From: Deltaproteobacteria bacterium
GTDB lineage: Bacteria; Desulfobacterota; DSM-4660; Desulfatiglandales; HGW-15
Assembly (NCBI GenBank): GCA_016930835.1
Contig: JAFGGA010000204.1
Span: forward strand, 1-64,000
DNA: 64,000 bases
Direction of reading: 5' to 3'
The notes below the pieces were generated by a model. The model made no database searches and was not told the DNA's origin. It saw only the letters and a program-made list of their open reading frames with translations. This document shows, in pieces, positions 60,559 to 63,996 of the stretch (position 1 is its first letter; each line of letters begins with the position of its first letter). Position numbers and translations under genes: made by a program.

Positions 60559-61291
60559 AATACCCCTATGGGACCTTATTCCTTTATATCGTTGGGCTTC
60601 TCTGGGCAAAGTAATAGGCGGATTGGTGCATAATTTAAATGGCCCCCTGCAAAATATAGGATTGGACATCGAGATGACTAAACATCTTCTCTCCAACACC
60701 AAACCTTTGGGTGAAACCGAGCTGAAAACCGTTTTGACCCGTATCAGACGCATGGGAGAAGAGTTCGAGCGAATTGACCAATTGATAAAGACCGCCGCCG
60801 TAAGGGCTAGTCAGGATGATGATTATTTCAATTTCCTGCACATGAATGAGTTCATCAAGCAAGAATTCGACTTTTGCAGGAACAACCTTTATTTTAAGCA
60901 CAATGTGCAGACGGAGTTCAAATTTCAAAAAAATCTTCCCACCCTGAGAAACCTGCCGAAGGATCTCATAATGGCCTTAAGCGCTTTCATACATACCTTT
61001 GTGGATGAGTTGGAGGATCGAAAGATAAAAAGGCTGTTCATCAAGACATCCATGAACACCAATCTAAAAATCACGCTCGAGACAAAGGATGGGCATTTAT
61101 CCGATCAGTTCATGGATCAACTTGACCGTGAAATCAACGACTCGCCGGCTTTAAGCATGGATGATCACAAGATAGACATCCTGTTCCCCTTGATCATTTT
61201 TCACAAGACAGGTGTTTTGGCCTCAGGTAAAAAATCGTCAACCGGCTCAAAAATTTCCCTCCAGATTCCTATGCATAATCCCCCCGCTTAA
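60548..61291 (+). CDS. Degenerate histidine-kinase-like protein
   Basis: 247 residues. The N-terminus has a clear dimerisation/H-box, SLGKVIGGLVHNLNGPLQNI, with the phospho-acceptor His in context. The expected ATPase part is poorly conserved. The N-box position reads LIMALSAFIHTFVDEL without its asparagines, and no DxGxG was found, although SKISLQIPM resembles a terminal strand. It may be a scaffold or phosphotransfer protein rather than an active kinase. Overlap with the PilZ gene suggests a joint role in c-di-GMP or flagellar signalling. It converges with the - strand gene, overlapping it by 23 bases. Confidence 0.7.
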   Translation: MLIEIPLWDLIPLYRWASLGKVIGGLVHNLNGPLQNIGLDIEMTKHLLSNTKPLGETELKTVLTRIRRMGEEFERIDQLIKTAAVRASQDDDYFNFLHMNEFIKQEFDFCRNNLYFKHNVQTEFKFQKNLPTLRNLPKDLIMALSAFIHTFVDELEDRKIKRLFIKTSMNTNLKITLETKDGHLSDQFMDQLDREINDSPALSMDDHKIDILFPLIIFHKTGVLASGKKSSTGSKISLQIPMHNPPA

Positions 61292-61748
61292 ATCTCGTGA
61301 TTTCCTTGCCTAATGTAATGGATAGATCGGTGATCACGGATTTCAACGTTCCCGGTATTCCGGGCATTGCTTCCATCTCACGCAAAAAATCCAATCGGCC
61401 TTCAAGATGATCCATTAAAGGATCAAGATCATGAATAGGTATGGAATCATCCGCTAGTCTGGCGGCATAAAAATCCACCATATCAAGGGTCTCATACAGC
61501 GATTTTAGAAGTTCGTTTTTCTGGGTCGACGCCATGGATGGTGTTTTATTTTCCACTCCATTAAGGATCTGGACACCACTCAGAATGGGGCCCATGCCCT
61601 CATTGGTCTTGTTGACCCTGCGGGTTTCCCCGGATGGGGTGGTCAACTGCTCCATGATACTCTGAAAATTACCTGAAGCAGTCTTTTTTCTGCTGGTTTG
61701 TTTGTCAATATGTGACGAAACAGGCCCTTGGACTTCATGTATCTTCAT
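61269..61748 (-). CDS. Uncharacterised protein behind a sigma-54 promoter
   Basis: 159 residues, not recognised. The N-terminal ~75 residues are polar and probably disordered (QTSRKKTASGNFQSIMEQLT). The C-terminal ~85 are helical (LLKSLYETLDMVDFYAARLA, DPLMDHLEGRLDFLREMEAM). Ribosome-binding site AGAAGGAGG precedes the ATG, and a good sigma-54 promoter lies about 60 bases upstream, a type used for class II flagellar genes. A flagellar role is therefore likely but unproven. A small export-apparatus-associated or regulatory protein is possible. It is not a match to FlgM or FlgN by visible motif. Confidence 0.75.
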   Translation of the reverse strand: MKIHEVQGPVSSHIDKQTSRKKTASGNFQSIMEQLTTPSGETRRVNKTNEGMGPILSGVQILNGVENKTPSMASTQKNELLKSLYETLDMVDFYAARLADDSIPIHDLDPLMDHLEGRLDFLREMEAMPGIPGTLKSVITDLSITLGKEITRFKRGDYA

Positions 61749-61987: not shown

Positions 61988-62008
61988 GGTAGGTATTTTA
62001 TTCCTACC
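61988..62008. repeat. TTTTATT-centred palindrome overlapping the cheB remnant stop
   Basis: GGTAGG and CCTACC arms flank TATTTTATT. It covers the stop codon of the cheB remnant on the - strand and may also act as a transcript-end hairpin. Confidence 0.5.
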
Positions 62009-62219
62009 GGGCCATCATCTCAAGCACTGTTTTGGTCATGTTTCGCAGTGTTTCTACCTTATCCACAGCCCCGAGCCTGATGGTCTCCGTTCCGCCAGTC
62101 GATGCACCGATGGCACTGAACGACCAATGCCAGAGCAAACGGGCTATCATTGAGCGTATTGACGGAAACATTAGAAGTCTTTTGAATCCCTTTCAGATCC
62201 GCCAAGGCACTGTCGAACG
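62004..62219 (-). pseudogene. cheB: cheB remnant (protein-glutamate methylesterase) with internal deletion and frameshift
   Basis: On the - strand, a linker-like stretch (KTSNVSVNTLNDSPF) reads in one frame to ALVV. After a one-base shift near 62126 it continues SAIGASTGGTETI, the CheB catalytic-serine motif. It then passes directly to RLGAVDKVETLRNMTKTVLE and a stop, which is a CheB C-terminus. The receiver domain and nearly all of the catalytic domain are missing. It is therefore non-functional as it stands. Alternatively the assembly has collapsed here. CheB identity rests on GASTGGTE and the GAVDKV tail. Confidence 0.7.
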
Positions 62220-62328
62220 AAACCACTTTCATATCGGGATCTTCCGCAACAGCCATTATTTTATGGGCCATCCGCGGGATCGGTTTGAATTTCTCGATAT
62301 CTTTAATGATCGTCTTAACGTCGTTCAT
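62220..62328 (-). pseudogene. Truncated HDOD-domain gene
   Basis: Begins with a proper ATG overlapping the cheD stop (ATGA) and ribosome-binding site GGGGAGG. The first ~36 residues (VKTIIKDIEKFKPIPRMAHK, IMAVAEDPDMKV) match the start of HDOD signalling proteins. The frame then enters cheB linker-like sequence, and the rest of the HDOD domain is absent. Intact relatives are several-fold longer. The junction lies near 62220. Confidence 0.65.
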
Positions 62329-62640
62329 ATCTCAACCTCCCCATTACCTGAAATCTTGATCCAGACCTTGCCGTCTTTGACTGCCAGTTTAATGGTTCGA
62401 TTGACCACCCCTCCCAAGTCTTCATAATCGATCATCACGCTATTTTCCCAAAGCATTTTTCGAACAGCCATATCATTGCGTGTTCCGATATTAAAAAATC
62501 CTTGTTGGTCAAGAATCTGCGCACCTCCCGCCACAACGACCTTCATCCACTCTTTCTTAGCGCCCAGATTATAGGCTGATTGAAAAAGGCTCGGCAGGCC
62601 GGTATCGCAAAACATAAAAGGGTTGGCTCTCGCTTTATGG
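62325..62640 (-). pseudogene. cheD: cheD remnant (chemoreceptor deamidase), 5' part missing
   Basis: The frame reads NPFMFCDTGLPSLFQSAYNL, then MKVVVAGGAQILDQQGFFNIGTRN and a normal C-terminus (VMIDYEDLGGVVNRTIKLAV). The first third, including the region with the catalytic cysteine and histidine of CheD, is missing. Its upstream frame merges into cheA sequence near 62640. ATG 62615 could initiate a short product, but without the catalytic part. Confidence 0.78.
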
Positions 62641-63450
62641 GAATGATAGATTTTTCCTCCCCGGCCCTTATGATCATGCCTTCCATGATGGCAAGAGTAA
62701 GCGGCAGACTGATTCGGAAGGTTGATCCCCGACCCGGATTGGAGCTGATTTCCACCCGGCCTTTTCGCAATTCAATATTTTTTTAACCACGTCCATACCC
62801 ACCCCGCGTCTGGAAACATCCGTCACCTTTGTTGCCGTTGAAAAACCCGATTGAAAAATCAGGTTATGGATTTCCAGATCACTCATTCTCGTTTCATCGA
62901 CAATCAGATTGTTTGTTTTTGCTTTCTGAATAATCTTTTCTTTATCCAACCCTCGCCCATCATCCATAATCTCAGGATAATATTTGCTCCGAGATGATAG
63001 GCCTTCAGATGAGAGGCTCCCCTTCGCGGCTTTCCAATCTTTTCCCGTTCATCGGGAAACTCGATACCATGGTCTATTGCATTGCGGATCATATGCACCA
63101 TGGGCTCATAAAATTCTTCCACTGCATTGCGATCGATTTCAGTCTCCTGGCCGAACATGAGAAGATCCACTTCTTTGCCGGCCTTTCTAGCCAGATCCCT
63201 CACCAACTTGACCATCTTCTAAAAGAAGAAAATCACTACTCCCGTCGAAAATGAGCTTTTCCAAGTGGATGTGTAAGGCTTGGATCAGGTCTGAAAAGAG
63301 GGTGTGGCCCGATTGCCTGACGAGCCCTTCCAACGTCTGGGTATCCTTTATAAGCTTTCCCAAAACCGGGAGATCTCCCGGCTCCAATGTGATGACGTGA
63401 AGTGCGATCTTTTCAATAATCTTATCAATCGTCGTAATAGAACGCGGCAT
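62641..63450 (-). pseudogene. cheA: cheA remnant (chemotaxis histidine kinase), deleted and frameshifted
   Basis: ATG 63450 has ribosome-binding site CAGGAGT. The first ~75 residues (SITTIDKIIEKIALHVITLE) are followed, after a junction near 63215 and a frame change, by MVKLVRDLARKAGKEVDLLM and VHMIRNAIDHGIEFPDE, the N-box. One base is missing near 62970 (CTGAG for CTGGAG), after which MDDGRGLDKEKI and GVGMDVV follow. A second base is missing in an A7 run near 62783, before GRVEISSNPGRGSTFRISLP. The phosphotransfer core, dimerisation helices and CheW-like domain are missing. Three frames are needed to read it. Confidence 0.82.
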
Positions 63451-63612: not shown

Positions 63613-63996
63613 CTAGGCTCCAAAGACCTTTTTTAATTTTTCATTAAAGGTTTCCGGGGTAAAAGGCTTAACGATATAATTGCTCACTCCGGCCTTAACC
63701 GCTTCAACAACGTTCTCTTTTTGTCCTTCGGCCGTAACCATTAAGAAAGGGATAGCCTTGAGACCACCATCCTCCCTGACGGCCTTTAAGAGATCCAACC
63801 CGCTCATATTCGGCATATTCCAATCCGATACGATCAATCCCACCTTTTCTTTTTTCAGTTCCTCAAGGGCGGTGGTGCCGTCTTCCGCTTCAATGATATT
63901 CGTGAATCCCAGTTGCTTGAGAACACCCTTTACAATCCGCCTCATGGTTGCAAAATCATCAACCACCAAAATTTTCATGGATGTATCAATGGACAT
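63613..63996 (-). CDS. cheY: Chemotaxis response regulator CheY
   Basis: 127 residues; a single receiver domain. KILVVDDFATMRRIVKGVLKQLGF is typical CheY. The phospho-acceptor Asp is in LIVSDWNMPN, Thr in MVTAEG and Lys in IVKPFTPE. ATG 63996 is four bases from the window end, so its ribosome-binding site is not visible; ATG 63978 (MKILVVDD) is an alternative. It controls flagellar switching via FliM. The gene is intact, in contrast to the chemotaxis genes downstream of it. Confidence 0.95.
   Translation of the reverse strand: MSIDTSMKILVVDDFATMRRIVKGVLKQLGFTNIIEAEDGTTALEELKKEKVGLIVSDWNMPNMSGLDLLKAVREDGGLKAIPFLMVTAEGQKENVVEAVKAGVSNYIVKPFTPETFNEKLKKVFGA

Follow-up and report, generated by a model that had tools for sequence, protein, structure and literature searches.

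The window analysed here is the whole stretch of 64,000 bases from position 1 to position 64,000 of contig C45 (84,800 bases) in the draft genome of a Deltaproteobacteria bacterium (G000; 4.70 Mb in 224 contigs, 95.5% complete, with 3.8% estimated contamination). On the minus strand, positions 62004–63450 hold a collapsed cheA–cheD–HDOD–cheX–cheB operon from which REC, placed between HDOD and cheX in relatives, has disappeared. Its order and orientation match those of the intact orthologous operon of a relative, G001 (locus L048), which served as the reference for the relic in tblastn and frameshift-aware alignment. The order in G001 is cheZ, cheY, cheA (749 aa), cheD (159 aa), HDOD (282 aa), REC (155 aa), cheX (158 aa) and cheB (348 aa), followed by a gene of 158 aa and by two genes named by eye, one kinase-like and one PilZ-like; the six genes from cheA to cheB are confirmed by Pfam. 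The intact operons used to match the window came from members of the same family (G001, G002, G003, G010 and G011) and from other families of the order. Six-frame reading of 62004–63450 found no intact gene, the only frames being short ones on the minus strand. In operon order, the features of the locus are the following.

63613–63996, minus strand: cheY, intact, the retained flagellar response regulator (86% identity to the CheY of G001)
63211–63450, minus strand: N-terminal piece of the cheA relic, which matches aa 1–80 of CheA in G001 and lies before the Hpt domain
63211–63224, minus strand: deletion junction in cheA, placed by the overlapping ends of two tblastn matches and by the junction sequence
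62639–63218, minus strand: HATPase domain piece of the cheA relic (aa 436–629), from frameshift-aware alignment
62638–62639, minus strand: cheA–cheD junction, at which aa 629 of cheA meets aa 57 of cheD, with about 0.56 kb lost
62328–62636, minus strand: cheD relic (aa 57–159; 72% identity to the CheD of G001)
62236–62328, minus strand: HDOD relic, the first ~31 codons (tblastn E 6e-9 with the HDOD of G001)
62116–62235, minus strand: probable cheX relic, the C-terminal ~38 codons, from operon position and likeness to CheX tails
62085–62114, minus strand: start of the methylesterase domain in the cheB relic, AIGASTGGTE, identical at 10/10 residues to the motif in CheB of relatives
62004–62087, minus strand: C-terminal tail and stop of the cheB relic (aa 323–347 at 62087–62013; 52% identity, E 2e-4)
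61269–61748, minus strand: a 159-aa gene that marks the far edge of the operon (36–42% identity, collinear in G001, G003, G009, G008 and G016)

Measured from the cheA start to the cheB stop, the operon spans 5,591 bases in G001 versus about 1,447 in the window. The damage consists of two one-base frameshifts and about five deletions, which, judged from G001, took roughly 1.06, 0.56, 1.56, 0.5 and 0.45 kb; the third removes all of REC. The cheA and cheD pieces were matched by tblastn with E values of 1e-34 to 1e-52, all pieces stand in operon order, and we regard a chance origin of these in-order matches as negligible. An earlier note on this DNA had described cheA, cheD, HDOD and cheB as reduced to pieces in operon order, which is borne out by tblastn and by frameshift-aware alignment to G001; its list of four genes was incomplete, as it overlooked the piece of a probable fifth, cheX. 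It had also counted three one-base frameshifts, two of which were confirmed at 62975/62974 and 62778/62777, while the one placed near 62126 proved to be the cheX-to-cheB junction.

The N-terminal piece of cheA shows 24–41% tblastn identity to CheA of the same family and of further members of the same order. At the junction that follows it, aa 81–435 are lost (about 1.06 kb), including the Hpt and dimerisation domains. Both one-base losses fall in the HATPase piece, the second within an A7 run. The first third of cheD is missing, including the GSC motif (aa 26–28 in the G001 CheD), and the Pfam CheD match begins at profile position 19; the surviving aa 57–159 continue without a break into the start of HDOD. 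The REC gene, which stands between HDOD and cheX in relatives, is wholly absent from the window. For the stretch at 62235–62116, HDOD/REC was tried as a label and dropped in favour of cheX. It is most likely a cheX tail and is the weakest label of the relic anatomy: a search with the CheX HMM alone gave nothing significant for this piece, so the label rests on its operon position and on the cheX tail of the flagellar locus of G002, against which 17 of 10,000 shuffles score as well. In cheB, the AIGASTGGTE motif is fused at about 62087 to the last 25 residues of the protein, and the join falls at a repeated E-A-I-K/R stretch, with E-A-I-K codons at both sites in relatives. Two junctions may lie at such short repeats, namely these E-A-I-K codons in cheB and AGAAGATGG in cheA, which may be a repeat common to both sides of its junction.

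Coding capacity is broken in every gene, by domain-removing deletions in cheA, cheD, HDOD, cheX and cheB and by the absence of REC, and the stretch is homologous to the intact operon with conserved synteny. Judged by its sequence, 62004–63450 is a pseudogene relic of an ancestral flagellum-linked chemosensory operon, cheA–cheD–HDOD–REC–cheX–cheB. On both sides the relic is bordered by undamaged genes that are collinear with those of relatives. The earlier note had called cheY and the flagellar genes intact; cheY, cheZ and the 159-aa gene are indeed whole, among others, and so are flhA and the flagellin genes. CheZ was confirmed by Pfam (48.3 bits, cut-off 30.7). The 159-aa gene, searched against Pfam and NCBIfam, matched neither; in the relatives compared, it comes after cheB, or after cheY where the operon is gone.

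Selection on the relic was assessed from changes unique to G000 at otherwise invariant sites, with G001, G003 and G010 as the reference. For the cheA relic, amino-acid changes stood at 28/135 in G000 versus 27/348 for the three relatives taken together (Fisher p = 1.7e-4) and changes at second codon positions at 19/164 versus 14/449 (p = 1.4e-4); rates at third positions were equal (p = 0.86). The cheD relic gave 13/70 lineage-specific changes versus 15/186 (p = 0.024), and the same test on cheY and cheZ of G000 found no excess change (p = 1.0 and 0.84, respectively). These counts take sites as independent and draw on few genomes, and they are supporting rather than conclusive evidence that the relic is under relaxed selection relative to the intact orthologs.

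The earlier note had allowed that the region might be a collapsed or low-quality piece of assembly; on that reading, the true genome would carry an intact operon. The assembly is indeed a draft, and one of the two frameshifts sits inside the A7 homopolymer; against this, five separate deletions lie in order within 1.4 kb between clean flanks, and an intact copy was not found elsewhere in the genome. Since nonsynonymous substitutions are in excess in the relic and the same locus has decayed in four relatives, we consider an artefact very unlikely. It is no more credible that the remaining fragments still yield functional small proteins. One such fragment, a 96-codon tail of cheD, forms an uninterrupted frame that includes an ATG and retains its 72% identity to the G001 protein, but it comes from a gene whose first third, with the GSC motif, is gone and in which lineage-specific changes are also raised, and the same genes are entirely lost in sister lineages.

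A search of G000 for a second full cheA/cheB, as the earlier note had proposed, revealed two intact sets, at C45:70.8–77.4 kb and C50:9.5–15.4 kb, neither of which is of the old type represented by the relic. The C45 set begins 7 kb beyond the window edge and runs cheA (1087 aa)–MCP–cheW–cheB–cheR, upstream of M23–223aa–cheZ–cheY; its CheA has Hpt, kinase, CheW and C-terminal receiver domains. The C50 set is complete, with MCP, CheD, CheB, CheR, CheW and a CheA of 690 aa. Across G000, searches found neither another intact old-type operon nor a second copy of the relic's CheA N-terminus, and CheD matches elsewhere are of other types. The MCP between the 1087-aa cheA and cheW (L003:12496–14172, on C45 outside the window) has a Mcp40H-20 type sensor; a 45% identical MCP follows cheA in G014, and there is none at that place in G009, G008 or G016. 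On contig C76 of G000 (L111; 3558 bases), genes for a TrmJ-like methyltransferase and CheD stand together with the first part of a CheZ that is 36% identical to the C45 CheZ, and a second TrmJ-like gene, on C135, is 68% identical to the C76 copy; C76 probably represents contamination by a related species.

Given these two intact che operons, one of which adjoins the same cheZ–cheY, chemotaxis function has probably been kept in G000 and the old signalling core superseded. The earlier note had suggested, as one of two readings, that chemotaxis was lost while motility genes were kept, and whole loss would fit a destroyed flagellum-linked core next to intact flhA and flagellin genes; with two intact che operons that include MCPs, and with cheY and cheZ intact and under normal constraint, this suggestion is unsupported and we give it very little credence. 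The relic should be annotated neither as a working cheA/cheD nor as a loss of chemotaxis.

The state of the old locus was read in G000, G002, G009, G008 and G016, five of the six genomes with the 1087-type CheA; the sixth, G014, is 74% complete. Decay is graded among these genomes: two genes are broken in G002, five are in fragments and one is gone in G000, one stub is left in G009, and nothing in G008 and G016. Contig C325, which carries the flagellar locus of G002, retains cheD, HDOD and REC, and has a cheX with an internal deletion and a cheB cut to aa 7–85; it ends before cheA. G002 also has the new cheA, on C284. The two genomes with both systems are thus G002, with its old operon partly broken, and G000, with the relic, and the 6% contamination of G002 is a caveat on its reading as an intermediate. 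Away from the flagellar genes, G002 carries on C201 (L139:13830–19583) a complete second old-type operon with another gene order, cheA–cheD–REC–cheX–HDOD–cheB, which would be either a paralogous system or contamination. In G009, G008 and G016, cheA (1087 aa)–cheW–cheB–cheR lies upstream of cheZ–cheY as in G000, and the gap from cheY to the 159-aa gene is 415, 289 and 288 bases, respectively. The gap of G009 contains an HDOD stub of ~34 codons (E 4e-8); a search of the other two for remains of the old operon found nothing recognisable, and blastn of the relatives' gaps against the relic gave chance-level words only. The cheY/cheZ pair is intact and collinear in G000, G009, G008 and G016; that of G002 is on C53, where cheZ is seen in part. 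Upstream of M23, G001 and G003 have a cheD-like gene, and the 1087-type operon is absent there. A contig search for congeners with the same relic returned only more distant old-type operons.

A midpoint-rooted FlhA tree of 12 flagellated family members groups G000, G009, G002, G014, G008 and G016 in one clade (support 100/99), with no resolution inside it. The 1087-type CheA is present in exactly these six genomes and forms one clade in the CheA tree (98/98), well apart from the old type; the copies of G014 and G002 are on short contigs that do not cover the full operon set. Old-type CheA occurs in G001, G002, G003, G010 and G011, in other members of the order, and in Desulfobotulus and Desulfotignum. 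Since old-type operons are found in other genera of the family and in other families of the order, the loss is derived. It also occurs without the 1087-type system, as the old operon is absent from G005 and G012, which are flagellated and fall outside the FlhA clade. On the simplest history, the ancestor of the six genomes would have gained the new core, and the old one would then have been lost at differing rates. In the old-type CheA of G001 (L048:2992–5238), aa 301–354 resemble the MshE-type cyclic di-GMP-binding motif model (36.1 bits against a cut-off of 38), a hint that cyclic di-GMP may have been an input into the old kinase.

The best explanation, and in our judgement a likely one, is that an additional core took over the flagellar CheY/CheZ output and that the old core then decayed. 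In an ancestor of the lineage, a second core, cheA (1087 aa)–cheW–cheB–cheR, would have come to sit upstream of cheZ–cheY in the same flagellar region. Its CheA would then have begun to phosphorylate the retained CheY, on which CheZ would act as the phosphatase. As a consequence, the genes for the old kinase, deamidase, phosphatase and methylesterase would have become dispensable and eroded through frameshifts and through deletions, some of which may have arisen between short direct repeats. What we observe is the anatomy of the relic, the relaxed selection on it, an intact second operon elsewhere on its contig and, among relatives, decay in graded steps; what we infer is the signalling from the new CheA to this CheY and the motor, and the order of events, takeover and then decay. 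A true relic would also be expected had the takeover been made by the C50 operon, or been shared between both. C50 encodes a complete set, and its CheA class occurs in G008 and G016 as well; this type is seen only in those two genomes and G000, however, whereas the 1087-type adjoins cheZ–cheY in four genomes and matches the clade of loss, which makes a role for C50 in the takeover unlikely.

Takeover by the core next to cheZ–cheY has a published parallel. In gammaproteobacteria, an F7 system took over the output of F6, of which cheY and cheZ were kept and the rest was lost in stages (Ortega et al., 2020; PMC7184735). In both cases two chemosensory systems coexist, one takes the flagellar output, the old cheY/cheZ are kept, and cheA, cheB and others are lost stepwise. 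Nevertheless, there are differences. The present case concerns another phylum and other CheA types and is read from sequence; moreover, the displaced operon can still be recognised where it stood, and the incoming core adjoins the retained cheZ–cheY. Adaptation of CheY at the CheA interface was seen in the F6-to-F7 case (PMC7184735); among the few sequences compared here, no CheY column separates new-clade from old-type genomes. In Campylobacterota, Mo et al. (2022; PMC9321776) describe F-class switches as following substantial flagellar gene alterations. As described there, those switches likewise exchange the primary flagellum-linked chemosensory class, but in the present family the gene order of cheZ, cheY, the 159-aa gene and the flanks is conserved. 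The relic resembles ordinary bacterial pseudogenes in its deletions, its frameshifts and the relaxed selection on a dispensable operon, and differs from them in extending over a whole operon and several lineages, in graded stages, with a candidate replacement alongside.

Since the F6-to-F7 and Campylobacterota switches have been published, the kind of event is already known and the novelty here is modest; the particular part is the graded series together with a readable relic in place. With moderate confidence, we view the locus as a counterpart of the F6-to-F7 takeover that arose independently and in place, in which the core beside cheZ–cheY would have taken over and the resident core has been kept at successive stages of decay in living genomes. 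When one chemosensory system takes over the flagellar motor from another, this is usually deduced from the presence and absence of whole systems. Because the relic still sits where the operon once stood, and sister genomes show stages before and after it, the order of gain, coexistence and decay becomes testable.
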